A stretch of DNA of 44,648 nucleotides from NCBI GenBank assembly GCA_021297985.1, contig JAJTGU010000222.1:1-44648 (forward strand), in the 5' to 3' direction. A model generated the notes under the pieces. The model made no database searches and was not told the origin of the DNA. It saw nothing but the letters and a program-made list of their open reading frames with translations. Below, piece after piece: positions 1 to 26,156 of the stretch. Positions within the stretch are counted from its first letter, which is position 1, and each line of letters opens with the position of its first letter. The position numbers were made by a program, and so were the translations under genes. The DNA comes from Rubrivivax sp. GTDB taxonomy: Bacteria; Pseudomonadota; Gammaproteobacteria; Burkholderiales; Burkholderiaceae_C.

Positions 1-1
1 C

Positions 2-778
2 TTCAGCTACGACTGCGAGCGGGTGTTTTCGCCCCAGCGCTGGGCGCTGGCCGGCGAGGCCGGACGCTTTCTCGATCCCTTCTATTCGCCGGGCAGCGAC
101 TTCATCGCGATCGGCAACACCTACATCGCCGAGTTGGTGGCACGCGACCGCGAGGGCAAGCCGCTCGCCGCCCACACCCAGATCTACGAGCAGATCTTCA
201 AGAGCTTCTACGACAGCACGCTGGCGCTGTATGTCGACCAGTACGGCCTCTTCGGCGCGCCCGAAGTGCTGCCGCACAAGATCATCTGGGACTACACCTA
301 CTACTGGAGCGTGCTGTCGCAGCTGTTCGTCCAGCAGCGGCTGGCCGACATGGCCTCGCTCGCGGTGCTGAAGGCCGAGCTCGCCAGCTGCCAGCGCTTG
401 AACCTCGCGGTGCAGGATCTGCTGCGCGAGTGGGGCCGCGTCAGTGCCCACCGCAACGCGCCGGTGATGCTCGACCAGGCCAAGCTGCCCTGGTTTGCCG
501 AGCTCAACGGCAGCCTGATGGACGAGCCGCTGTCCGACACCGCCTTTCGCGCCCGCCTGCGCGAGGCCGCCGAGCGGCTGAACGCACTCGCCCACGAACT
601 GCTGGCGCGGGCCCTGGCCGAGCATCCGGCCCTGGCTCCCGGGGCCGTTGCCGCGCTGCGCGCCGCCATCGCCGAAGGCATCGCCCCGCAGCGCGACTTC
701 GGCAGCATGCTGTTCGCACCGTCGCACGCACCGACCGGCAGCGGCGCGCGCAGCGAGCCCGAACTCACGGCGGCGTGA
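2..778 (+). CDS. Flavin-dependent (tryptophan) halogenase-like / FAD-dependent oxidoreductase, C-terminal part, truncated by the window edge
   Basis: The frame is open upstream of the listed GTG (FSYDCERVFSPQRWALAGEAGRFLDPFYSPGSDFIAIGNTYI). The WALAGEAGRFLDPFYSPGSDFIA segment is typical of halogenase-like FAD proteins found in aryl polyene/xanthomonadin-type clusters. Confidence 0.6.
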   Translation, partial: FSYDCERVFSPQRWALAGEAGRFLDPFYSPGSDFIAIGNTYIAELVARDREGKPLAAHTQIYEQIFKSFYDSTLALYVDQYGLFGAPEVLPHKIIWDYTYYWSVLSQLFVQQRLADMASLAVLKAELASCQRLNLAVQDLLREWGRVSAHRNAPVMLDQAKLPWFAELNGSLMDEPLSDTAFRARLREAAERLNALAHELLARALAEHPALAPGAVAALRAAIAEGIAPQRDFGSMLFAPSHAPTGSGARSEPELTAA

Positions 779-1320
779 ACGCACCGGGCGGCGTCCAGTT
801 GCGGCCGCTGGCCGACACCGACCTGCCGCGGCTGCACCGCTGGCTGCACGAGCCGCACGTGCTCGAATGGTGGGGCGGCGAGGACGCTGCGCCCACGTTG
901 GACGAGGTTCACGCCCACTACGGCCCGCGCATCCGGGCCGAAGACGGCGTGCAGGCCTGGATCGCCTTCAAGACCGGACCCGACGGCGCCGAGCAGGCCA
1001 TCGGCTACGCCCAGTCCTACACCGCCATGGGCTCGGGCGACGGCTGGTGGGCGGACGAGACCGACCCCGGCATGCGCGGCATCGACCAGTTCCTCGCCGA
1101 CGGCAGTCGTCTGGGCCAGGGCCTGGGCACCCAACTCGTGCGCGCGCTCGTCGACCGGCTCTTCGCCGACCCGGCGGTGACGCAGATCCAGACCGATCCG
1201 CACCCCACGAACAGACGCGCGATCCGCTGCTACGAAAAGGCCGGTTTTCGTGCCGTGGAGGAGATCGTCACGCCAGATGGGACGGCGCTGTGGATGGTGC
1301 AGCGAAGGCCGCGAGTCTGA
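775..1320 (+). CDS. GNAT acetyltransferase, AAC(6')-like
   Basis: GTG start overlaps the stop of the upstream gene (GTGA). Contains LRPLADTDLPRLHRWLHEPHVLEWWGG, SRLGQGLGTQLVRALVDRLF and DPHPTNRRAIRCYEKAGF, including the GNAT acetyl-CoA-binding Q/R-x-x-G-x-G motif. Confidence 0.7.
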   Translation: MNAPGGVQLRPLADTDLPRLHRWLHEPHVLEWWGGEDAAPTLDEVHAHYGPRIRAEDGVQAWIAFKTGPDGAEQAIGYAQSYTAMGSGDGWWADETDPGMRGIDQFLADGSRLGQGLGTQLVRALVDRLFADPAVTQIQTDPHPTNRRAIRCYEKAGFRAVEEIVTPDGTALWMVQRRPRV

Positions 1321-1346: not shown

Positions 1347-2150
1347 TCAAGGGGACGTCAGATCCCGCCCACGCACGATGCAGATGCCCTGGGACTGCAG
1401 CAGATGCAGGAACCGGCCGCCGGAAAGCGCCGCGAACTCGGCCTGCCGCGCGTGGGCCAGCGGATCCTGGGCGTCGGTCGGCGTCGCAGCAGGGTGGCAG
1501 ACCAGCAGCGCGCCATCGGGCAGCTTGGGCAGCCAAAGCCGAAGCAACCTGCGGTAGTCGCGGTTGAATCCATAGAGCCCCGCAAGGTGCTGCGTCTGCA
1601 CAAAGCCGGCACGGGTGACCGCGGCTGCAAAACCATGGGCCGCCGCGTCGAGCACCGCGCGCTTCAGAAGACTGCGACTGGTGTTCGCGGACGTCGACAT
1701 CCCGCGCAGGTACGGCAGCGGGCCGCTGTAGCGACGGCTCAAGCACTCCAGCAAGACATCGCGCACCTGGGCGAAGCAGTGCACGTGCTCGTGACCGTCG
1801 ACGTGATCCGGGCCGCAGCCGGCCACGTCCTCGAAGTGGTCGAGCTGACGCTCGATCGCGTCGCGCAGGCTCGACAGGCTCAACTGCCGTGCCATTGCAC
1901 GGACCAGCAAGCGCGAGACCTGCATGCCCGGGCGGCTGTCGAAGACCGTCGTCAGGTTCAGGTGCAGGCCGACATCCAGCTGCTTGAGCATCGGCCGCAG
2001 CAGCCCGAAGTCGTCGCGCCAGCGGGCCGATGTGCTCAGGCAGCTCACTGCCGACACGCGCCCCTGCTTGCAAAGCCGCGCAATGCCGCGGCTGACCCCC
2101 GCGCTCGCGGCAAAGTCGTCGGCACAGACCACGATGCGGCGCAAGCTCAT
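1347..2150 (-). CDS. ChbG/YdjC-family carbohydrate deacetylase (NaxD/LgmC-like)
   Basis: MSLRRIVVCADDFAASAGV (metal-binding DD) and GPDHVDGHEHVHCFAQV (DGHxHVH). Overlaps the upstream GtrA gene by 4 nt. Confidence 0.8.
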   Translation of the reverse strand: MSLRRIVVCADDFAASAGVSRGIARLCKQGRVSAVSCLSTSARWRDDFGLLRPMLKQLDVGLHLNLTTVFDSRPGMQVSRLLVRAMARQLSLSSLRDAIERQLDHFEDVAGCGPDHVDGHEHVHCFAQVRDVLLECLSRRYSGPLPYLRGMSTSANTSRSLLKRAVLDAAAHGFAAAVTRAGFVQTQHLAGLYGFNRDYRRLLRLWLPKLPDGALLVCHPAATPTDAQDPLAHARQAEFAALSGGRFLHLLQSQGICIVRGRDLTSP

Positions 2151-2551
2151 CGGAACACCCACCCTTGCGACAGCGCATAGGTGCCAAGCGCTGCGGCGAC
2201 CAGGGCAACACCCAGGCACCAAGGGAACGGCCAGGCCGTGTGCTGCAGCAAAGCCGCGCACAGCAGCAGGTTGACGAGCAGGCCGAGTGAGGCCACCACC
2301 ACATGCCGAGTCATTCGATGGACCTGTGCGCGGCGCGCCTGGCTGCGCGCAAACGTCACCCGCTGGTGGAAGAAGAAGCTGACCGGCAGCGCGCCGGCAA
2401 AACCGATGACGTTGGCCAAGCCGGCGCTTGCGCCGAAGCCTTCAATGGTGATCGCCAGCACCCAATGGACGGCCGCCGCCAACGCGCCCCCGACGGCGAA
2501 GCGGACGGGTTGCGCCGCCCGCTGGCGGGCCTGGGTCCACAGCGGCCTCAC
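2147..2551 (-). CDS. GtrA-like small four-TM membrane protein (putative polyprenyl-P-sugar flippase)
   Basis: VRFAVGGALAAAVHWVLAI...NVIGFAGALPVSFFFHQRVTFARS. GTG start overlaps the GT2 stop (GTGA). Confidence 0.75.
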   Translation of the reverse strand: MRPLWTQARQRAAQPVRFAVGGALAAAVHWVLAITIEGFGASAGLANVIGFAGALPVSFFFHQRVTFARSQARRAQVHRMTRHVVVASLGLLVNLLLCAALLQHTAWPFPWCLGVALVAAALGTYALSQGWVFR

Positions 2552-3549
2552 ACCGCTGTCGGCTGGCGACCGATGTCCCTCGCCACCACATAGGCGGGAC
2601 GTCGCTTGACTTCGCGGAACACCTCGGCCAGGTACTCGCCCAGGAGTCCGATGGACAGCAACTGCAGCCCGCCCAGCACGAGCACGCTGACCACCACGGT
2701 CGTCCAGCCCGGGATCTCGTGGCCCCAGATCAGCGTGCGCATCAAGAGGAAGGCGCCGTAGCTCACGGACGCGAGCGAGACGCAGGCCCCTATGCCGGTC
2801 CACACCCGCAGCGGCACATCGCTGAAGCAGAGCACACCGACGCGCGCCAGCGACAGCAGCGAGCGCCAGGCGAAGGTGGTCTGGCCGCCGTTGCGCCGGC
2901 GCGGCGTGTAGGGCACGCGCGCGACGCTGAATCCGACCCAGCCGTACTGCCCCTTCATGAAGCGCGGCTGTTCGGGCATCTGGCGCAGGGCCTGCACGAC
3001 CGTGCGGCTCATCAGTCGGAAATCACCCGCGCCGTCTTCGATGGGAACACTGGCGATGCGCCTCAGCAACGCGTAGAACGCGCGTGCGGACACGCGGCGC
3101 CAGCCGCTGTCGGCGCCACGATGCTCACGCATGGCCACGACGTTGTCGAAGCCCGCGAGCCACCGCTCGAACAAGGCCGGCAACAGCGCCGGCGGATGCT
3201 GTCCGTCCGCATCCATGAGGATCACGGCGTCGCCGTGCGCATGGTCCAGGCCCGCCCGGAGCGCGGCCTCCTTGCCGAAGTTGCGCGACAGGCACAGCAG
3301 CCGCAGCGGCCAGTGCAGCGTCCACTCGGACACGACCGCGGCCGTGTTGTCCTGACTCCCATCATCCACGACGACGACCTCGAAGCGTGGTGACAGCGTG
3401 GGCAGCACGGTCATCAACTCGTTCAACAAGGCGGGCAGGTTGACCGCTTCGTTGAACGCGGGGATGACACAGCTCACCAAGGGCACCTCGCGCTCGATGG
3501 CCGCCTGCACGCGCGTCAACGCGGCACGATCGACGCTCTCGTCACTCAC
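2548..3549 (-). CDS. Family 2 glycosyltransferase, polyprenyl-phosphate-sugar synthase type (ArnC/GtrB/LgmA-like)
   Basis: VSCVIPAFNEAVNLPALL, VVVVDDGSQDNTA, SRNFGKEAALRAGLDHAHGDAVILMDADGQHPP, two C-terminal TM segments. GTG start overlaps the end of the GT39 gene. Confidence 0.85.
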   Translation of the reverse strand: MSDESVDRAALTRVQAAIEREVPLVSCVIPAFNEAVNLPALLNELMTVLPTLSPRFEVVVVDDGSQDNTAAVVSEWTLHWPLRLLCLSRNFGKEAALRAGLDHAHGDAVILMDADGQHPPALLPALFERWLAGFDNVVAMREHRGADSGWRRVSARAFYALLRRIASVPIEDGAGDFRLMSRTVVQALRQMPEQPRFMKGQYGWVGFSVARVPYTPRRRNGGQTTFAWRSLLSLARVGVLCFSDVPLRVWTGIGACVSLASVSYGAFLLMRTLIWGHEIPGWTTVVVSVLVLGGLQLLSIGLLGEYLAEVFREVKRRPAYVVARDIGRQPTAV

Positions 3550-5038
3550 GGCAGCGCCCCGGCGCAATGGCTGCGACCTCCAGCACGGCAAGCGCCGTGG
3601 CGGTGCCATGCGCATAAGGCGCCTGCAGGCGGCCGCGGGCCATGATGCAGTTCTCCAGGCCCCAGGGCAGTGCGGGCGGGAGAGCGTCCAGCAGAGACAA
3701 CAGCAACGCACCGCCACGCTCGATCTCGGCACGCCCGATCCAGGGCGTTTGCGAGGGCGGGTCGCCAGTCAGAACCAGGGGCCGGCCTGGCATGCGGGCG
3801 GACACGGCACCGGCCTCCCACGCAGGCCCCACCAGCACAGCCGGCCGCTCCGCGGCGGTGGCGGCCCGCCACCACGTCAATGCCTGCCCGGCGAGGGCCT
3901 GCGACGGGTAGGCGCTGTAGCGCTCCTCGGGCGGGGCGTGGTCCATGCGCATCAGCAGCGAAACAGCCGACAGCCCATGGGCCACGAGCACGCCCACGAC
4001 CACAGCCATGATCGCGGGGCGCCGGTTCCGGCGTACCAGACACACCGCCAGGATCGGAATGAGCAGCAGTGTCACGGAGGTGCCCCAGTGGTTCTGCAGG
4101 CGCACACCGAAGAGCAGGACCAACGCCACCAGCCCCAATGCCGGGGCCAGCACGATGGCGGCTGCGATCCGGCCGGACGTCCTCTTCGCAGCCGCCCGGG
4201 TGCCGCCACCCAGCAGACTCGTCAGCACCAACGCGACGCCCAACGCCACCAGCATGGGCAACACGCGCACAAACTGCTGACCCCAGAAGCCCAGCAGAAC
4301 CCTGAACCGCTGCGGCGCGTCCAGGCCGGCGCCCAGTGACGTGCTCGCATAGCCCAGTGTCGGCCACTGGTTGAGCTGTGCCCACCACAGGTGAGGTGCC
4401 ACCACCACCGCAGCCACGACGCAGGCCAGCAGCGCCCCCGGCAGCAGGCGGCGCCGCGCGGCGCCCGCGGATGCCGCACCCACGGCCCACAAGGCCACCG
4501 GCACGCTCAGGAACAGCAGCATCTGGTACTTCACCAGGGTGCCGGCACCGATGCTCAGGCCCAACAGCGCAAAGTGTCGCCAGCGTCCGTCTTCGAACAG
4601 CCGCACGCAACTCCAGAACAGCAAACCCACCCACGGCAGCATGGCGCTGTTGTGATTGAAGAAATGGCCGCGCGCGCTGAAGAAATAGACCGCACTGCCC
4701 AGCAGCACGGCGCACAGCGCACTGCGCTCGTCGACCAGGCGGCGCGTCGCCAGCCAGACCCACCACAACCCGATCCCGGTGCACAGGTGGCCCAGCGTGT
4801 AGCTGGTGAGCGTCGGGTCGAAACCGAGCTTCAGCGCAAAGTGCATCACCCAAGTGGGCAGCGGGGGGTGTTTCCAGTAGCCCCACTCCAGGCTGTGCGC
4901 CCAGTTGAGCTGCTCGATGTTGTCGCCCGGCGGGCTGGCGTAGTGGCCAACCGCAAAGGCCGTCCAGCACGTCGCGTGCAGCACCAGCCAGCCCAGCAGG
5001 GCTGACTGCGGCGCGACCAGAGCCGACAGGCTTCGCAT
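3542..5038 (-). CDS. GT39-family (ArnT-like) polyprenyl-P-sugar-dependent membrane glycosyltransferase
   Basis: GDNIEQLNWAHSLEWGYWKHPPLPTWVMHFALKLG and many TM segments. Confidence 0.8.
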   Translation of the reverse strand: MRSLSALVAPQSALLGWLVLHATCWTAFAVGHYASPPGDNIEQLNWAHSLEWGYWKHPPLPTWVMHFALKLGFDPTLTSYTLGHLCTGIGLWWVWLATRRLVDERSALCAVLLGSAVYFFSARGHFFNHNSAMLPWVGLLFWSCVRLFEDGRWRHFALLGLSIGAGTLVKYQMLLFLSVPVALWAVGAASAGAARRRLLPGALLACVVAAVVVAPHLWWAQLNQWPTLGYASTSLGAGLDAPQRFRVLLGFWGQQFVRVLPMLVALGVALVLTSLLGGGTRAAAKRTSGRIAAAIVLAPALGLVALVLLFGVRLQNHWGTSVTLLLIPILAVCLVRRNRRPAIMAVVVGVLVAHGLSAVSLLMRMDHAPPEERYSAYPSQALAGQALTWWRAATAAERPAVLVGPAWEAGAVSARMPGRPLVLTGDPPSQTPWIGRAEIERGGALLLSLLDALPPALPWGLENCIMARGRLQAPYAHGTATALAVLEVAAIAPGRCRE

Positions 5039-5086: not shown

Positions 5087-5103
5087 CTTAGGACAAACTT
5101 AGG
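5087..5103 (-). promoter_or_regulatory. Perfect direct repeat CCTAAG-TTTGT-CCTAAG upstream of the GT39 ATG; candidate PmrA/BasR-type response-regulator box
   Basis: Plus strand reads CTTAGG ACAAA CTTAGG at 5087-5103. The 11-nt period matches OmpR-family half-site spacing, and the PmrA consensus is CTTAAK-N5-CTTAAK. Confidence 0.5.
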
Positions 5104-6571: not shown

Positions 6572-7351
6572 TCAATCCTGAAACGGCGGAAGCCGTTGCC
6601 AGCGCCGCCACAGAAGCATCGGCAGCCGCAGCACGAACTCCACCATCAGCCGGGTGTGCATCCAGGTCAGCAGCAGGTTGTCGCGGCCGTAGCGGAAGTG
6701 CGAGACGCCCCCTTCGTCGGCGCGCAGGTACTTCACGGGCGCGTCCAGGTTCAGCGGCTTGACGCCGCGCCAGGCCAGGCGGACGACGGCCTCAGTGTCG
6801 AAGTCGAAACGGCGCATCCAGCGCTGGCCGCGCATCACCGCACGCAGGCCCTCGACCGGATAGACCCGAAAGCCATACAGCGAGTCGGCAATGCCGGCGC
6901 CGAGCGTTTCGAGATTCGTCCAGCCGTTCGAGACCCGACGCCCGCGCACGCGCAGCAGCGGCGCGCTGGCGTCGAACACCGGGCGTCCGAGCACCATGGT
7001 CTCGGGTCGGGCGACGGACGCGGCCATGAAGGCCGGGATCAACCCGGCCGGGTGCTGGCCGTCGCTGTCCATGGTCAGCACGTGGCTGAATCCTGCGGCC
7101 ATTGCGGCGTCCACCCCGTGCAGCACCGCCGCACCCTTGCCCTGGTTCTGCGGCAGCACGAAGACCTTCAGCCCGGGGTCCGCGGCCTCTGCGGCCTGCA
7201 GGGCCTGGGCCGTGCCGTCGGTGCTGCCGTCGACGACGACCCAGACCGGGCCCCAATGCGCACGCGCAGCGGCGACGGTGGCAAGCACCTGCGGGCCGGT
7301 GTTGTAGCTCGGGATCAGCACCAGATGGCTGGTGCTCGGCGTGGGACTCAA
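6572..7351 (-). CDS. Family 2 glycosyltransferase
   Basis: HLVLIPSYNTGPQVLATV, VVVDGSTDGTAQAL, NQGKGAAVLHG, MDSDGQHPA. TTG start overlaps the stop of the acyltransferase (TTGA). Confidence 0.8.
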   Translation of the reverse strand: MSPTPSTSHLVLIPSYNTGPQVLATVAAARAHWGPVWVVVDGSTDGTAQALQAAEAADPGLKVFVLPQNQGKGAAVLHGVDAAMAAGFSHVLTMDSDGQHPAGLIPAFMAASVARPETMVLGRPVFDASAPLLRVRGRRVSNGWTNLETLGAGIADSLYGFRVYPVEGLRAVMRGQRWMRRFDFDTEAVVRLAWRGVKPLNLDAPVKYLRADEGGVSHFRYGRDNLLLTWMHTRLMVEFVLRLPMLLWRRWQRLPPFQD

Positions 7352-8118
7352 GGTACGGCCACGGGCTTGAACGGCGACAAGTGCACCTCGCTGGCGAGGT
7401 AGGCCTCGATCTCGCGCTGCTGGGCGGCGGGGTCCTCGCTCGGCGCAAAGCGCCGGCCAAGGCGGACCGTGAACACCGCCGGCAGCCGCGGCAGCCGCCA
7501 GGCCGGCCAACCCTTGCCGAGGTAGGGCGAGTCGGTGTCGATGATGACCGTCTGGATCGGCACGCCGGCGCGCGACGCGATCAGCGACATGGCCGAGTGG
7601 CAGGGGTTCAGCGGCCAGCGCGTCGTGCGCGTCCCTTCCGGAAACAACACCAGCTGGCCCCCGGCCTGCAGATCCTCGACCGCACGCTTGACCATGCTGA
7701 AGGTCGCGTCGTTGCGGATGTAGCGGGCCAGACGCACCGCAGCGCCGAGCAGCGGGTTGTTCACGAGGTTGGCCTTCATGATGCAGGCCGCCCGCGGGAG
7801 CCGCGCCACCAGCATCACCGCGTCGAGCATGCTCGGGTGGTTGGCGACGACGATCAGGCCACGCTCTTCGCGCAGCACATCCAGTGATTGGGCGTGCAGT
7901 TGCAGCATCCGGGTGGCGCCGGTCATCAACCAGAAGAGCCCGTACCCGCGCGAGATCGCGGCGCGGCCCACGACAAGCCCACGGGCCCGCGGCAGCAGCG
8001 GGTACAGCAGTGCCGCCAGCGCGTTCCAGAGCAGCGAGCCGATCAGCAGCGACAGCAGCAGTGCCATCAACGCGGGCCATGCGACAGCACGGACCAGAGG
8101 GTGGTTCCAGAGTTTCAA
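7348..8118 (-). CDS. PlsC-like 1-acyl-glycerol-3-phosphate acyltransferase family protein
   Basis: VVANHPSMLDAVML (NHxxxxD) and VLFPEGTRTTRW. Overlaps the chorismatase by 4 nt. Confidence 0.85.
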   Translation of the reverse strand: MKLWNHPLVRAVAWPALMALLLSLLIGSLLWNALAALLYPLLPRARGLVVGRAAISRGYGLFWLMTGATRMLQLHAQSLDVLREERGLIVVANHPSMLDAVMLVARLPRAACIMKANLVNNPLLGAAVRLARYIRNDATFSMVKRAVEDLQAGGQLVLFPEGTRTTRWPLNPCHSAMSLIASRAGVPIQTVIIDTDSPYLGKGWPAWRLPRLPAVFTVRLGRRFAPSEDPAAQQREIEAYLASEVHLSPFKPVAVP

Positions 8119-9179
8119 GCCGCGACCCCCGCGGCGGTGGCGGGGACCGGCATCGGATCGAGGTGGCCTTCGATCTCGACCAGCAGTTCACGGCGGCAGA
8201 CATCGGCCCGCAGGTACACCGCGCGCCGGGCCGCCGGCTCGCCCCAGGCCGTGGCCAGCTCGTCCTGCACTGCCGCCAGGTCGCGGGCGTGGCGCACGTA
8301 GACGGTGGCCTCCAGCTCACGGGCGTGGCGGCCGGCCAAGGCTGGCCGTTGGCGTGCCGCTTGTGCCAGCACCGCGTCCAGGTTGGCCAGCGTCTCACGC
8401 GTCTGGGCTCGCACGTCGCCCGGGTGGCAGGACCCGTGGCCGACGATGCTCGCGGTGCCCGAGACCATCAGCGTGGACCGGTCGGGCTCGAAGTCGACCA
8501 GGCTGGCGCGCGAAAACGTCGGTGCCTTCGGCCCGTATTGACCCGGGTAGCGCCAGGCCGGCACCTGGCGCGGGTTGTCGACCGCCTCCGTGGGGACCGC
8601 CCCGGCAATGAAGCGCAGGCTCAGGACGTCGCCGTCCACCCCCAGGGCACAGGCCGCCGGCGACCCGGCAAAGGCGTCGTGACCCTCGGCAATGAACGCG
8701 GCCTGGCGGCCGATGTTGAACTGCCGGTAGCGCTCGCTGGCTTCGGACGGGGCATCCAACGCAGCCGCGTCGTCGTCGTGGATGGCGGGCAGATAGTTCC
8801 AGACCCGCAGCAGGCGGGGCACACCGGCGTCACGCAGGCTGGCAAAGACGTCGGCATAGGCGGCGCGCGCCAGGTCGGCCAGCGGCCTGCCGCCGCAGAC
8901 CTGATCCAGGGCACCAAAACACAGCCCCCCGGCGGCGCGCCAGTGCACGCCACCCCGGCGACCTTCGCGCAGCGGACCGGCCGCCCACAGGCCATCCCGT
9001 GCCGCCTGGGCCATGGCCGGAGCCAGCAGCGCCGCCGGCGGACGCCCAGGGCAAGGGCCAGGGCCGGAGCCGGCCGACCAGTCGAGTTCGCCCAGGCAGT
9101 TGCCCTCAGGCGCTTCGCTCGTCGAAGCGGCGCCGCCGACGCGCCGCCACGGTGGGGAGATGAAAACGGAGCGAAGCAT
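8115..9179 (-). CDS. FkbO/Hyg5/XanB2-family chorismatase-like protein
   Basis: RVWNYLPAIHDDDAAALDAPSEASERYRQFNIGRQAAF...PRQVPAWRYPGQYGPKAPTFSRASLVDF...LMVSGTASIVGHGSCHPGDVRAQTRETLANLDAVL resembles the chorismatase fold (YjgF-like repeats). Confidence 0.75.
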   Translation of the reverse strand: MLRSVFISPPWRRVGGAASTSEAPEGNCLGELDWSAGSGPGPCPGRPPAALLAPAMAQAARDGLWAAGPLREGRRGGVHWRAAGGLCFGALDQVCGGRPLADLARAAYADVFASLRDAGVPRLLRVWNYLPAIHDDDAAALDAPSEASERYRQFNIGRQAAFIAEGHDAFAGSPAACALGVDGDVLSLRFIAGAVPTEAVDNPRQVPAWRYPGQYGPKAPTFSRASLVDFEPDRSTLMVSGTASIVGHGSCHPGDVRAQTRETLANLDAVLAQAARQRPALAGRHARELEATVYVRHARDLAAVQDELATAWGEPAARRAVYLRADVCRRELLVEIEGHLDPMPVPATAAGVAA

Positions 9180-9382
9180 CCTGAGCGGGCGAAAAGCCGC
9201 GAATTATGTCGGCTGCGTGCCTCACGTCGACTGGAGAGACCTCTCCCAAATCGGTCACGTTGCGATCCGGTCAGGCCGTGTCTCTTGCCGCTTCCCGCCG
9301 GGGTCGGACGGCTATGATCGCGGGCCGGTTTTCAGCCTCTCTTCCCACCCAGGCCTACCGCCTCGACCCACCCGACCGACCC

Positions 9383-9625
9383 ATGAGCGCGCTCGAAGAA
9401 ATCCAAGCCCTGGTCCACAAGAAGTACGGCGTGGATCCGGCGACGCTGGACCCCAACGCCTCGATGCGCGAAGCCGGCATCGACTCGCTGACCCTGGTCG
9501 AGATCCTGTTCGCGGTCGAGGATCACTTCGGCATTTCGGTGCCCGAGAAGTACAACGCCATCGACACGATGGCCGAGCTGGCGGCGGCGGTCGAAGAGCT
9601 GCGCGCCGAAAAGCTGGCGGCCTGA
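9383..9625 (+). CDS. Acyl carrier protein
   Basis: 80 aa, phosphopantetheine attachment motif AGIDSLTLVEILFAVEDHFG. Confidence 0.9.
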   Translation: MSALEEIQALVHKKYGVDPATLDPNASMREAGIDSLTLVEILFAVEDHFGISVPEKYNAIDTMAELAAAVEELRAEKLAA

Positions 9626-9654
9626 GCCTGCGACGTCGCGCCGATGACCCGCCA

Positions 9655-10896
9655 ATGACCCGCCGGGTAGCCGTCACCGGCCTCGGGGTCGTGTCGCCCC
9701 ACGGCGACGACACCGACACGATGTTCGCGGCGTTGATGCGCGCCGAATCGGCCGTGCGGCCGGTGTTCCCCGATCTGCCCAAGGCCGCCGCGGCGGCCTG
9801 TGTGGCCTTCGACGAATCGCGCTGGTTCAGCAAGCTGCAACTGGCCGGTGTCGACCGCGTGAGCCAGATCGCCGTCGCCGCAGCCGACCTGGCCCTGAAC
9901 CAGACCGGGCTCCCACGCAGCGCGGCCATCGACCGCACCCGGGTCGGCGTGTTTGCCGGCTGCGGGATGGGTGGCGCCGCCGCGCTCGAGGCGGCCTACC
10001 AGGCCAGTACCAAGGCCGGATCGGGCCCGGTACGGATCCCGCCATTGACGATCCCGGCCTTCATGCCGAACGCACCCGCAGCCCATGTGGCGATGCGCCA
10101 GGGCGTGCTGGGGCCGGTCATCACCTACTCGGTGGCCTGCGCCTCGGCCGCCGTGGCCATCGGCGAGGCCGCCAAGGCGATCCGCGCCGGCGAGATCGAC
10201 ATCGCCATCGCGGGTGGCAGCGAAGCGCTGATCGTGCCCGGCGTCGTCCAGGCCTGGCAGGCGATGCAGACGCTGGGGCAGTTCGAGCCGGGCAACGCCG
10301 AGTCGGCCGCACGCGCCTGCAAGCCCTTTGCCGCCGACCGCAGCGGCTTTGTGCTTGGCGAGGGCGCGGCCTTCCTGGTGCTGGAGTCCGAAGACTTCGC
10401 CCGCGGCCGCGGAGCCTCCATCCACGCCATGCTCGCGGGCGCCGGTCTGTCGTGCGATGCCACCCACCTGACCAAGCCCGACTCCCCCGGCCAGCAGCGC
10501 GCCTTGCGCGCGGCCTTGGCCCAGGCGGGCCTGGTGCCGGCCGACATCGGCTACTGCAATGCCCACGGCACCGCGACGCGGATCGGCGACGTCGTCGAAT
10601 GGGAGGCCCTGGCAGCGGTCTTCGGCCCGGCCCTGGCCGACCTGCATGTCAGTTCGACCAAGGCCCTTCACGGTCACCTGCTCGGCGCCACGGGCGCGCT
10701 CGAGGCCGCAATCACCGTCCTGGCCTTGCGCCATGGCCAGTTGCCACCCAACGCCCACTGCGAGCAGCCCGACCCGGCCTGCCCGCTGAATCTCGTCCCC
10801 GGCAGCGGCATGCAGGCGCCGGGACTGCGCGCCACGATGAGCAACTCGTTCGCCTTTGGCGGCACCAATTCGGTCCTGGTGTTCGTCCGCGACTGA
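9655..10896 (+). CDS. Beta-ketoacyl-[ACP] synthase (FabF/KAS II-like)
   Basis: VAVTGLGVVSPHGDD, active-site Cys in YSVACASAAVAIGEAAK, NAHGTATRIGD, STKALHGHLLGATGALEA, NSFAFGGTNSVLVF. Confidence 0.92.
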   Translation: MTRRVAVTGLGVVSPHGDDTDTMFAALMRAESAVRPVFPDLPKAAAAACVAFDESRWFSKLQLAGVDRVSQIAVAAADLALNQTGLPRSAAIDRTRVGVFAGCGMGGAAALEAAYQASTKAGSGPVRIPPLTIPAFMPNAPAAHVAMRQGVLGPVITYSVACASAAVAIGEAAKAIRAGEIDIAIAGGSEALIVPGVVQAWQAMQTLGQFEPGNAESAARACKPFAADRSGFVLGEGAAFLVLESEDFARGRGASIHAMLAGAGLSCDATHLTKPDSPGQQRALRAALAQAGLVPADIGYCNAHGTATRIGDVVEWEALAAVFGPALADLHVSSTKALHGHLLGATGALEAAITVLALRHGQLPPNAHCEQPDPACPLNLVPGSGMQAPGLRATMSNSFAFGGTNSVLVFVRD

Positions 10897-21190: not shown

Positions 21191-21570
21191 GGGGAACCTC
21201 TCTCCCTGTACACGTCAGTCCACCCGAACCTGTCCCCGCGATTGGCCTTCAACGGCCGGGGCACAGGTCCACGGAGGGTGCCGCCGAACGGGCGACACCC
21301 CTTGCCGATCGTCGGATCAGCAGGCGGCAGCCCGCAGGCTGCAAGGGGGTCGGATGGCGGTCTTCATCGGGTGTCCTTGAGGCCGGTGATGGCCGAGGGA
21401 GCCCGGATCATAGGGCGGCAAAGCGCCGTTGTCGTGGTGGGCAACGCCACAGGCCGGCCCCTTTGTTCTGGGGGGGATGGTCCTGAAACCGGACAAGCGG
21501 CCCGCGAACGGCGACGAGCGGTTTCCGCCAAATCACCCACTTCGATTCCGAACTCGAATAATCGCCAGCC

Positions 21571-22038
21571 ATGCGACAGCGTCCTGCAACCCCACATCGG
21601 TCTGGTCGTCGTGGCTTCACGCTGATCGAGGTCATGATTGCTCTGGTCGTCATTGCCTTGCTGGCGGCAGTGGCGTACCCGGCCTACACCTCGGCCATCG
21701 CGAAGAACCGGCGCGCCGAAGGCGTTGCCGCCATTGCCGCCGTGCAGTTGGCCCAGGAACGCTGGCGCTCCAACCACGACACCTACAGCAACTCGTTCAC
21801 GGATCTCAAGGTCGGCGAGTACTCCAGCCCGTCGGGCTATTACAAGCTGGCGATCAGCGGCAACGACGATGTCGGCTACACGGTCACGGCAACGGCCGAA
21901 ACCGGCAAGGCCCAGGCCAGCGACACGAACTGCGTCCGCTTGCAGATCCAGGTCGAGCGCTCCATCCTGACCTATCGCTCGGGCGCGAGCGCCGGCGCGC
22001 TCGACGAGACCAATCAGCACAAGTGCTGGAGCCGCTGA
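21571..22038 (+). CDS. pilE: Type IV pilin PilE-like
   Basis: RRGFTLIEVMIALVVIALLAAVAYPAYTSAI prepilin peptidase site and N-helix; C-terminal cysteines. Confidence 0.85.
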   Translation: MRQRPATPHRSGRRGFTLIEVMIALVVIALLAAVAYPAYTSAIAKNRRAEGVAAIAAVQLAQERWRSNHDTYSNSFTDLKVGEYSSPSGYYKLAISGNDDVGYTVTATAETGKAQASDTNCVRLQIQVERSILTYRSGASAGALDETNQHKCWSR

Positions 22039-22643
22039 TGCGCCCGGACCGTCGCCAACGTGGCGTTACCTTGACCGAGCTGATGATCACGGTGGTGATC
22101 GCGGCACTGATCCTGACCTTCGCGGTGCCGTCGTTCATGGAGCAGATCGAGCGCCAGCGCCTGAAGTCCGTGCACGACGAACTGGTGGCGGCCATGCAGC
22201 TCACGCGCATGGAAACCCTGTCGCGCAACGCGCCAGGCTTCGTGAAACCTGGCAGCAACGACAGCCAGACCTGCTACCTCCTCGCGCTGAACACCAGCTT
22301 CACCAGGACCCCGCCGGAGGGATGCGACTGCGGCCGACCGGACAACGAGGCGATCTGCTTGCACGCAGAGGCCAAGCTGTTGGGCGTCGTTCGCGTGCCT
22401 CGGAGCACGGGTGTCACCGTGTCGCTCTACAAGGACGGCGCACCCGACTTCGTTTACTTCAACCGGGCCTCCGGGGGCCTGGAGGTCTTGGTCAACGATT
22501 TCGGCCAGACCAAGCCGACCGAGTACGGATTTCGCATCAAGGGTTCACGAGGAGGCGAGATCCTGATGATGATGGGTGTCGCCGGCCGTCCGAGTTCCTG
22601 CCAGGTCGGCGGAACGAACCTCGGCCTGAAGCAGTGCCCCTAG
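22038..22643 (+). CDS. fimT: GspH/FimT family minor pseudopilin
   Basis: RRQRGVTLTELMITVVIAALILTFAVPSF. ATG overlaps the pilE stop (TGATG). Confidence 0.8.
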   Translation: MRPDRRQRGVTLTELMITVVIAALILTFAVPSFMEQIERQRLKSVHDELVAAMQLTRMETLSRNAPGFVKPGSNDSQTCYLLALNTSFTRTPPEGCDCGRPDNEAICLHAEAKLLGVVRVPRSTGVTVSLYKDGAPDFVYFNRASGGLEVLVNDFGQTKPTEYGFRIKGSRGGEILMMMGVAGRPSSCQVGGTNLGLKQCP

Positions 22644-22659
22644 TGCACAGACCGACACC

Positions 22660-23406
22660 ATGAGAACCGAAGCCAGGCGTCTGCTGTCCAGGGGTATTTC
22701 GCTCGTCGAGCTGATGGTCGGCATCGCTGTCGGCCTGTTGGTGGTTGCGGCCGCGACGACCATGGTGACGGCGCAGTTGGGCAGCACCCGCCAGGTGTTG
22801 CTTGAAACCCAGCTCGATCAGGATCTGCGAACCGCCGCGGAAGTGGTCACGCGCGAACTGCGCCGCAGCAGCGCCAGTGTCATCGAAGGCTTCGGCCTCT
22901 GGTACTCGACGGGGCAGTTGCAGACCAACGCGACCGACGGAATGGCCGCGGACCTGACCCCTGGCGATGCCAGCAGCATTTCGATCCGGTACCGGCGCGG
23001 ACCCGGCGAGGAGGGCTTCGGCTTCAAGCTCGAGAACGACACCGTGAAGATGCTGATTCCAGATGGCGGCGCTGGGGTCTGGCAGGAATTGACCGACCCC
23101 CTCAGCGTCAAGATCACCAAGTTCTCGATCGACACCAAGAGAGCCGGCGGGCGTGAACGGTCGGACAACCTGGAGCCGCACATCATCCCGTGCCCATATC
23201 TTTGCCCGGACGGCACCACCGACTGCTGGCCACGCGCCAGGCCGCAGGAATACACACTGAGCATCGAGGGCGAGTCGCTGCGCGATGGGACCGTCCGACG
23301 CAGCTTGAGCACCAGTGTGGCCACCCGGTCCTTGACCACGTCGTTCGAAGTCTTTCCCGGCCAGCAAGGTCAGAACAACCAAGCCTGCCCGACCCTGCCC
23401 AACTAG
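22660..23406 (+). CDS. pilW: PilW family minor pilin assembly protein
   Basis: LSRGISLVELMVGIAVGLLVVAAATTMV, and TAAEVVTRELRRS typical of PilW. Confidence 0.8.
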   Translation: MRTEARRLLSRGISLVELMVGIAVGLLVVAAATTMVTAQLGSTRQVLLETQLDQDLRTAAEVVTRELRRSSASVIEGFGLWYSTGQLQTNATDGMAADLTPGDASSISIRYRRGPGEEGFGFKLENDTVKMLIPDGGAGVWQELTDPLSVKITKFSIDTKRAGGRERSDNLEPHIIPCPYLCPDGTTDCWPRARPQEYTLSIEGESLRDGTVRRSLSTSVATRSLTTSFEVFPGQQGQNNQACPTLPN

Positions 23407-23409
23407 ACC

Positions 23410-24948
23410 ATGGCGTCACTCCTGCACACTGCCGCATCCTCCGGTCCCTCCCGGTGGCGGAATCGTGCGCCTGCGCGCGGCGCCGCCACCCTGGCGGTCG
23501 TCATGGTGCTCTTCTTCCTGGTTGCGATGGTGGCGGCCTACAGCAACCGCAGCCTCATCTTCGATCAGCGCACGTCGAGCAATCAGTTGCGGGCGACCGA
23601 GGCTTTCGAGGCCGCCGAGGCCGGGGTCGAATGGACGCTCGCGCAGCTCAACTCCGGGCTGACCGACAACACCTGCAAGCCGTCGACGACCGAAGACGAC
23701 GATGCCCACCGGACGTTCCGCGACCGGTATCTGCGCATCGCGAGCACCGTTGCTGCGACCGGCCTGCCCAACGGAGCCGTGACGGCACTGAACAACACGG
23801 ACAACACGTCGATCCGGGTGCGGTGCGTCTTCAGCGGGGGCGATCCCGACTCGATCGCCTGGAACTGCACCTGTGGACAGCGCAACGTGGCCGTCGATCC
23901 CCCGTCGCGTCCGGCGGGTAACCAGCCGGCACCGGCATTCACCGTGTCGTTCGCCGTCGACACAGCCGCCAACGTTGATCAAGACCCGCTCCCGCGCACG
24001 GCGATCCGGATCATCTCGATCGGATGTTCACAAACCGGGGCCTGCTTCAGATCCACGCCGGCCGCCGATGCCAGCAGTTCGGTTTCTGCGATCTACGCCC
24101 ATGTGGCCTTGCGACCGGCGTTGCGCACCCAGCCCAGTTCCGCGCTGACCGTTGGCGGCAACGTCAACGCACTGCCGGCCGGCGGGTTTGCCGGCGGGGC
24201 TTCGGTGCGACTGATCAACGATCCCCAGGTGGCCATCCGTGCAAACCGCGTGGCGGTCAGCAACGGATTCACCGTGGTCGCAGGGGGCACGGTCGCGACG
24301 GCCAACCTGGACCCGGTTTCGATGCCCGGAACGCCTGGACTGGCCAGCGTCGCGCAGAACGATGCCACGTTGGTACCCGCCGCGATCAATGCCGCTGCCT
24401 TTCCGCCTGCGGGCCTGAGCAGCGCGGATCGATTCTTTGTGCTTCACCTGGGCATGACACCCGATCAGTACCGCCGCCAACCTGCCGTTGTCGTCCTGGA
24501 CTGCAGCAGCGTCTGCTCGGCCGCCAAAGTCAAGACGGAAGCAGCGCGCAACCCGGGCTCGCCGATCTGGCTCACCGGTGGCGGCGGACTGCTGCTCGAC
24601 GAGGACCTCGGCGAACAGAACAACGTTGCCAACGGCTCACAGCCTGCGGCTCGGGGGCCTCTGATGCTGGTGGTCGAAGGGCCGGTCGACGCCAGAAGCG
24701 GCGTCGACTTCTGGGGTGTGATCTACGGCCGCAGCGCCGACTGGATCTGGACCGTGGACGGCAGCGTCTCCATCCGCGGAGCCATCATCGGCGAAGGCAA
24801 CTTCAGCGTGGTGGCGGGCGCCAGCCTGCCGCAGTTGCAGGTGGATTATTCGGACGCCCAGGCGCTTGGCGTCTTCAACTTCCTGCGCACCCGCGCCGGC
24901 AGCTATGCCCGTGTGCCTGCGGGCTGGCGCGACTGGTACGCTGAATGA
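23410..24948 (+). CDS. PilX-like minor pilin, unusually long
   Basis: RGAATLAVVMVLFFLVAMVAAYSNRSLIFDQRTSSNQLRATEAFEAAEAGVEWTLAQLN; position between pilW and pilV. Confidence 0.7.
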   Translation: MASLLHTAASSGPSRWRNRAPARGAATLAVVMVLFFLVAMVAAYSNRSLIFDQRTSSNQLRATEAFEAAEAGVEWTLAQLNSGLTDNTCKPSTTEDDDAHRTFRDRYLRIASTVAATGLPNGAVTALNNTDNTSIRVRCVFSGGDPDSIAWNCTCGQRNVAVDPPSRPAGNQPAPAFTVSFAVDTAANVDQDPLPRTAIRIISIGCSQTGACFRSTPAADASSSVSAIYAHVALRPALRTQPSSALTVGGNVNALPAGGFAGGASVRLINDPQVAIRANRVAVSNGFTVVAGGTVATANLDPVSMPGTPGLASVAQNDATLVPAAINAAAFPPAGLSSADRFFVLHLGMTPDQYRRQPAVVVLDCSSVCSAAKVKTEAARNPGSPIWLTGGGGLLLDEDLGEQNNVANGSQPAARGPLMLVVEGPVDARSGVDFWGVIYGRSADWIWTVDGSVSIRGAIIGEGNFSVVAGASLPQLQVDYSDAQALGVFNFLRTRAGSYARVPAGWRDWYAE

Positions 24949-26156
24949 AGCCCACCCCCTTGTCGAACCGCCCCGGGCGTGGCCAGCGCGGCGTTGCGCT
25001 GATCGAAGCGCTGGTTGCGCTGGCCGTGATGGGCTTCGGCATGCTGGCGGTGGTCGGGACCATCGGCACGCTGCGGCTGAATGGCGACGTTTCGCGCCAG
25101 CGCAGCGAGGCCCTGCGCATCGCCCAGGACCAGATCGAGGAGTGGCGCGGTTACAGCGTTCTCGACACCACCGCTGACGGAAGGCGAATGGCCTACGAAG
25201 ACATCGTGACCGAGGACAGCTTCACGGTGTCGCGCGCCAACACCACGTTCACGGTCAGGCGATGGGCGCGCGAGGAAGCCGACGTGGCCGGCACTCAGCG
25301 CCCGCAGCGCAAGCATGTCCTGGTGACGGTGCAGTGGTGGGATCGCGTCAGCGACCCCGACAACCCCGACGACAAGCCCCAGGAAGTGCGCTTGTCGAGC
25401 ATGATCGCCGAGGCCGATCCGGCGTTGCGCGCCGTTGGCGTCGCGGCCCCTGCAGGCATCTGGTCGCGCCCGGCCTTCGGCCGAAGTGTCACCGTGCCGC
25501 AAGGTGCGCGTCAGATCAGCGAGGGCCGGAGCGTTCTGGTCCCCCCTGGACAAAGCGGTGGCGACCGCGTCGCACTCGTGTTCAACAACTTGTCCGGCCT
25601 GATGCAGCGCTGCGTCACCCCGGCCCAGACGACCGAGACGGTCGACGAAGCGGACCTGACGGTCGCCAACTGCGGCTCGGACTTCTTCCTGCTGATGCAG
25701 GGCTTCATCCGCTTTTACCTGACACCTTCCGCGACCGCCTTGACCCGAGCCAACGAGATGCGCGTCGCAACCGATGCGCCTCCGGTTGCGCCTGAGGTTG
25801 CCGTCGACCGCACCGAGCCCCTGGTCGGAACAGACACTTGCTTCGTATCCAAGAACGGCAATGTCTTCGAGTACTACTGCGTCGTCTATGCATTCGACGG
25901 CAGAGGTTGGTCCGGATCGCTGCGGGTGGACCTGCCGGGCTTCACCATCGGAGGCGCCGCTGCCGAGTACCGGGTCTGCCGCTTCTTCCCGGTCACCCGG
26001 ATCGAGAGCGGCGTGTCGTTCCAGGATTCCGTGAACCGGAATCTGCTGAACCAGAATCTGGTCATTACGACTGGCGCCAATACCGTGCCTACGAACGGCT
26101 GCAACCTCACCAATGCGGCCGGTCCAAGGGTCTGGCACCACCAACCCCCGAACTGA
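24945..26156 (+). CDS. pilV: PilV-like minor pilin
   Basis: RGQRGVALIEALVALAVMGFGMLAVVGTIGTLRL. Start overlaps the preceding stop (ATGA). Confidence 0.75.
   Translation: MKPTPLSNRPGRGQRGVALIEALVALAVMGFGMLAVVGTIGTLRLNGDVSRQRSEALRIAQDQIEEWRGYSVLDTTADGRRMAYEDIVTEDSFTVSRANTTFTVRRWAREEADVAGTQRPQRKHVLVTVQWWDRVSDPDNPDDKPQEVRLSSMIAEADPALRAVGVAAPAGIWSRPAFGRSVTVPQGARQISEGRSVLVPPGQSGGDRVALVFNNLSGLMQRCVTPAQTTETVDEADLTVANCGSDFFLLMQGFIRFYLTPSATALTRANEMRVATDAPPVAPEVAVDRTEPLVGTDTCFVSKNGNVFEYYCVVYAFDGRGWSGSLRVDLPGFTIGGAAAEYRVCRFFPVTRIESGVSFQDSVNRNLLNQNLVITTGANTVPTNGCNLTNAAGPRVWHHQPPN

Follow-up and report, generated by a model that had tools for sequence, protein, structure and literature searches.

A four-gene module in Rubrivivax sp. 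with a probable NaxD-type donor half and a terminal GT39 transferase outside ArnT by sequence

The window analysed here, the whole of a stretch of 44,648 nucleotides (nt) at positions 1 to 44,648 of contig JAJTGU010000222.1 (Rubrivivax sp., assembly GCA_021297985.1), carries a module of four leftwards-transcribed genes encoding a membrane glycosyltransferase of family GT39, a GT2 polyprenyl-phosphate sugar synthase, a small GtrA-type membrane protein and a YdjC/NaxD-like deacetylase (Table 1). All four reading frames are open and each product scores above its curated Pfam cut-off. The frames overlap by 8 nt (GT39/GT2), 4 nt (GT2/GtrA) and 4 nt (GtrA/YdjC), so the genes are likely to be translationally coupled; an earlier note made from the sequence alone had described four coupled genes of these families, and that description holds. 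The YdjC gene is the only one detected in the whole 4.73 Mb source genome (assembly completeness 96%). Because the four-gene-type combination is seen again in dozens of genomes, it is not a product of chance. The GC content of the module (68-70%) is that of the window (69%), and both GC and GC3 (third codon positions) resemble those of neighbouring genes, which offers no compositional hint of a recent transfer. The gene set is of a known kind, the naxD type; the new part would be its terminal transferase, which falls outside ArnT by sequence.

Table 1. Features of the window, with the module genes first.
Feature	Position	Strand	Remarks
GT39 (PMT_2) KHPP-type membrane glycosyltransferase	3542..5038	-	498 aa; PF13231 81.7 bits, cut-off 26.1
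GT2 polyprenyl-phosphate sugar synthase (GtrB/ArnC type)	2548..3549	-	GTG start; PF00535 107.5 bits, cut-off 23.3
GtrA-type small membrane protein, proposed flippase	2147..2551	-	GTG start; PF04138 62 bits, cut-off 26.1
YdjC/NaxD-like deacetylase	1347..2150	-	PF04794 156.8 bits, cut-off 29.7
Perfect direct repeat CCTAAG-N5-CCTAAG	5087..5103	-	Lies 48 nt upstream of the GT39 start
Halogenase-like fragment (by eye)	1..778	+	Cut by the contig end; no Pfam or NCBIfam match
AAC(6')-type aminoglycoside acetyltransferase-like gene	781..1320	+	NF012165 255.7 bits, just below cut-off 280
Pigment-type genes: GT2, acyltransferase and chorismatase (FkbO/Hyg5-like), followed by acyl carrier protein and ketosynthase genes in divergent orientation	6572..10896	-, then +	
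Minor pilin-type genes	21429..26156	+	N-methylation and PilX_N motifs

The donor half of the module (GT2, GtrA and YdjC) has a counterpart in Acinetobacter baumannii. A search of plasmid records with the window YdjC gave its best E-values to an A. baumannii deacetylase of the ChbG/HpnK family, encoded in a locus that adjoins gyrA and has the order deacetylase, GT2, GtrA, GT39; three of the hits are to A. baumannii "plasmid" records of 3.7-4.1 Mb that look like mislabelled chromosomes. The published PmrA box is TTTAAG-N5-TTTAAG (PMC10927774), and two overlapping copies of it, each with one mismatch, precede the A. baumannii deacetylase gene by about 85-115 nt; on account of these PmrA-box-like repeats and the gene content, the locus is referred to here as the naxD operon. 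Over 262 aa the window YdjC and A. baumannii NaxD share 34.7% identity (159 bits), and the GT2 and GtrA proteins are 43% identical over 306 aa and 28% identical over 123 aa, respectively, to their counterparts in the operon. Matches to the window GT2 among PDB sequences include sll0501 (267 bits) and ArnC (143 bits). The catalytic residues of the deacetylase are conserved, D11, D12, H63, D118, H120, H122 and H219 being invariant across 56 relatives. We therefore assign the donor half to the NaxD type with good confidence, as the earlier note had proposed. The last gene of the naxD operon (7168-8814 of the CP040041 locus) encodes an ArnT-like GT39 that scores 186 bits to the NCBIfam ArnT model, under its cut-off of 567, and is by sequence an obvious candidate for the enzyme that adds galactosamine to lipid A, called unknown in PMC12330716.

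The GT39 of the window is of another kind. It shows no significant similarity to either the A. baumannii GT39 or E. coli ArnT (21-24 bits, with 21 bits to the former), and these two proteins match each other at 122 bits. It has no NCBIfam match, the ArnT model included. The motif of the window protein is DNIEQLNWAHSLEWGYWKHPPLPTW; D..E...W and KHPP are present, and the RYA and EKP motifs are missing. The ArnT motifs RYA and YFEKP hold residues required for activity (PMC5377068). Alignment separates two classes, with DE.RY found in 36 of 42 ArnT-type rows and in none of 113 rows of the window GT39 family, and KHPP in none of the 42 and in 112 of the 113, the last count being partly built in because some of these rows were fetched with a KHPP-containing pattern (the family-wide GT39 search of 200 genomes was not). 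The AlphaFold model (predicted local distance difference test, pLDDT, 91; predicted template modelling score, pTM, 0.91) has a GT-C fold, and its best Foldseek matches are 5f15 (E 2.3e-7, template modelling score 0.63) and 5ezm. These nearest solved structures, with 5F15 the nearest, are of Cupriavidus metallidurans ArnT with and without undecaprenyl phosphate. The GT-C fold is common to other enzymes, so that fold alone is no proof of membership in the ArnT family. The window GT39 is thus ArnT in fold and not ArnT by sequence, and the term "ArnT-like" used in the earlier note stands for its predicted structure only. Its chemistry probably resembles that of ArnT, to judge from the model, and its motifs place it in a separate GT39 family, here called the KHPP family, which is apparently unstudied so far.

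The distribution of the two genes ties the KHPP family to the deacetylase. In samples from the bacterial family of 200 genomes (for GT39) and 400 genomes (for YdjC), relatives of the window GT39 are present in 44 of the 200 (the window genome counted) and YdjC relatives in 156 of the 400. Excluding the window genome, 42 of the 43 genomes with a KHPP GT39 are also YdjC-positive, compared to 33 of the 156 others (199 genomes of the GT39 sample, Fisher p 2.9e-21); counted by genus, which controls only roughly for kinship, 31 of 32 KHPP-positive genera are YdjC-positive (p 2e-14). KHPP relatives also occur in many Achromobacter species and in the bee-gut genus Snodgrassella; a plasmid search with the window GT39 returned two Variovorax records only.

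The terminal transferase varies among modules that are otherwise alike. The fetched loci with YdjC and GT2 number 73. Within 7 kb, only an ArnT-type GT39 is present in 25 of them, only a KHPP-type one in 24, both types in 11 and, at the thresholds used, neither in 13; as these loci were picked with module queries, the proportions are not population estimates. Modules with only the KHPP type, together with GT2 and YdjC, are found in Ottowia, Acidovorax, Glaciimonas, Snodgrassella and Nitrincola, and loci holding both types in Comamonas, Limnohabitans and Methylococcaceae. On the YdjC and GT2 trees the ArnT-type and KHPP-type modules are intermixed, and several switches are required even if starred branches alone are counted; on the GT39 tree, the starred branches imply 12 or more changes of the KHPP-only label, a figure that also depends on the length of flank covered. 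The terminal transferase has therefore been exchanged repeatedly, and the intermixing suggests interchangeable roles. In five loci (L141, L153, L133, L144 and L166) an ArnT-type and a KHPP-type GT39 lie beside one GT2/YdjC pair, and such loci likely serve two acceptors or positions with one donor. Four loci of one genus (L077, L078, L079 and L081) have YdjC, GtrA and GT2 with a GT39 only weakly like that of the window (42-51 bits), which by its sequence may represent a third terminal transferase type.

Five congeners were sampled, and a YdjC relative is present in only one of them, G095, where an ArnT-type GT39 belongs to the locus. Of the GT2 proteins compared, that of G095 comes nearest to the window GT2 (50%), and the G095 genome has in addition an unlinked KHPP GT39. 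An ArnT-type GT39 was not found in a search of the 96% complete source assembly. A second, distant PMT_2-type protein is encoded on another contig of the source genome (C59, about 7245-10547 of locus L197), by small multidrug-resistance-type and prenyltransferase-like proteins (by eye). The second PMT_2 and GtrA matches of the genome, both weak, come from this locus, which has no GT2 or YdjC relatives.

The loading, deacetylation, flipping and transfer steps are established for GT2/GtrB, NaxD, GtrA and GT-C enzymes. A plausible scenario is that the window GT2 would load an N-acetylhexosamine from a uridine diphosphate (UDP)-sugar onto undecaprenyl phosphate, YdjC would remove the acetyl group to leave a free amine on the lipid-linked sugar, GtrA would help it across the inner membrane, and the GT39 would act in the periplasm, attaching the hexosamine to lipid A or to the inner part of lipopolysaccharide (LPS) and giving a less negative surface charge. 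We infer this order of steps, as well as the sugar (glucosamine or galactosamine), the acceptor and an antimicrobial-peptide phenotype. The module would then follow naxD/lgm logic with a KHPP-type GT39 replacing, or added to, the ArnT type, and we favour, with moderate confidence, the interpretation that a non-ArnT transferase decorates lipid A or LPS with hexosamine. Several observations weigh against it. Within its family the window GT39 sits on the longest branch of the GT39 tree (1.82 changes per site) and lacks a close sister, so that it may act on an acceptor unlike even that of its relatives. Of 80 named loci with a KHPP GT39, 58 do not adjoin YdjC, and the co-occurrence of the two genes is silent on the acceptor. 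The distinction of the window protein from LgmB and FlmK follows from their published descriptions.

One alternative is that this is a true lgm/naxD/FlmK module in which the GT39 is an ArnT ortholog diverged beyond the reach of sequence search that adds glucosamine or galactosamine to lipid A phosphate, as in Bordetella and Francisella. The match of the donor half to the naxD operon and the ArnT structures nearest in fold are both as this would predict, but the two sequence classes separate cleanly at DE.RY, and the two types stand side by side in 11 fetched loci, so that neither is simply a copy of the other diverged in place; we consider an ArnT ortholog improbable. It is also conceivable that the acceptor is an LPS core sugar, 3-deoxy-D-manno-octulosonic acid (Kdo) or another periplasmic glycan instead of lipid A, as for GT39-type transferases that use polyprenyl-phosphate sugar donors in some other bacteria. 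The separateness of the KHPP family fits this, and the presence in one genome (G133, for example) of an ArnT-type module and an unlinked KHPP GT39 suggests a second acceptor for one donor. However, on both the YdjC and the GT2 tree KHPP-only modules stand in for ArnT-type ones, for which a shared acceptor is the simplest explanation, and we regard this alternative as rather unlikely. A broader proposal is that the KHPP GT39s form a class of their own among polyprenyl-phosphate-hexosamine transferases, acting on something other than a lipid A phosphate (the LPS core, a different outer-membrane glycolipid or, in the window, the pigment lipid) and fed by a NaxD-type donor pathway that also serves ArnT-type enzymes; this we would put forward only tentatively.

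The genes around the module bear on a further possibility, that it decorates the lipid of a neighbouring xanthomonadin/aryl-polyene-type pigment. A coenzyme A (CoA)-transferase gene lies 82 nt upstream on the same strand, and beyond it are GT2, acyltransferase and chorismatase-type genes as in xanthomonadin-type clusters; the unusual divergence of the window GT39 could likewise point to such an acceptor. Against this, pigment genes are absent beside the modules of the relatives, the CoA-transferase occurs without a module in nine congeners (with pigment-type genes near it in one), and the possible regulatory repeat described below sets the module apart. A role in pigment decoration thus seems very improbable, and the pigment neighbourhood looks incidental. 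The placement of the module between pigment-cluster genes in the earlier note is correct on the right side, beyond the CoA-transferase; on the left an AAC(6')-like gene directly follows a halogenase-like fragment. Farther to the right is a group of minor pilin-type genes (Table 1). Least credible of all is a role of YdjC in the metabolism of hopanoids (HpnK) or chitobiose (ChbG), in a cluster unrelated to LPS. These enzymes share the common Pfam family PF04794, but the window YdjC falls far below the HpnK model TIGR03473 (56.8 bits, cut-off 232.6) and the ChbG model NF002559 (60.8 bits, cut-off 227), as NaxD does with equally low scores; its gene is coupled to those for GT2, GtrA and GT39, and hopanoid or chitobiose genes are absent beside the module. 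The earlier note had named a clustering of the GT39 or YdjC with O-antigen, protein-glycosylation or hopanoid pathways as a finding that would speak against its proposal; YdjC is not HpnK-like, and nothing was found linking the GT39 to O-antigen or protein glycosylation.

Upstream of the GT39 gene is a perfect direct repeat (Table 1), the sole occurrence of YYTAAG-N5-YYTAAG in the source genome, with the 11-bp spacing of PmrA-type boxes. By its sequence it is a possible binding site for a response regulator of the PmrA/OmpR type, although it deviates from the HTTAAD consensus and the window has no consensus PmrA box. The repeat was spotted by eye and the search pattern shaped on it afterwards, so we treat it as a lead only. 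Box-like sequences of the same score occur upstream of 4.1% of module genes and in 0.85% of random pieces of the same loci, a comparison in which intergenic base composition is uncontrolled.

If hexosamine decoration by a KHPP-type transferase is correct, the modification of LPS with amino sugars, by which bacteria can become resistant to polymyxin and host peptides, would use a second GT39 family that goes unnoticed in ArnT-based annotation; relatives of the window GT39 occur in roughly one in five sampled genomes of the bacterial family. It also yields a testable rule, namely that a KHPP GT39 in a genome would need a NaxD-like deacetylase. The literature was searched for lipid A hexosamine in Acidovorax, Comamonas and Variovorax, and nothing relevant was found.

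Comparison with the known systems places the module among them by gene type. The A. baumannii naxD operon, which is PmrAB-regulated and adds galactosamine to lipid A, has the same four gene types in a different order, and its GT39 is ArnT-like whereas that of the window has no detectable similarity to it. In Francisella the GT2, YdjC deacetylase and GT39 proteins FlmF2, NaxD and FlmK work together. These gene types are like those of the window, but the terminal enzyme, unlike the window GT39, is counted among the ArnT family proteins (PMC5377068). The four-gene lgmA-D locus of Bordetella is reported to place hexosamine (glucosamine) on lipid A phosphates with the ArnT-type transferase LgmB (PMC11895810, PMC11401268, PMC5454989), described as an ArnT ortholog (PMC5454989, PMC5377068); a published B. 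holmesii lgm primer has no exact match in the genome contigs and no convincing near match in the fetched loci. Because the window GT39 is not of the ArnT family by sequence, the Lgm/FlmK combination seen in the earlier note is right for three genes of the four. The known modules are regulated by PmrA-type (A. baumannii) and Bvg-type (Bordetella) systems. The E. coli arnBCADTEF system, which adds 4-amino-4-deoxy-L-arabinose (L-Ara4N) to lipid A, differs in its sugar pathway, its deformylase ArnD in place of YdjC, its flippase ArnE/F in place of GtrA and its ArnT-type GT39, and has in common with the window module the logic of GT2 loading, deprotection, flipping and GT-C transfer.

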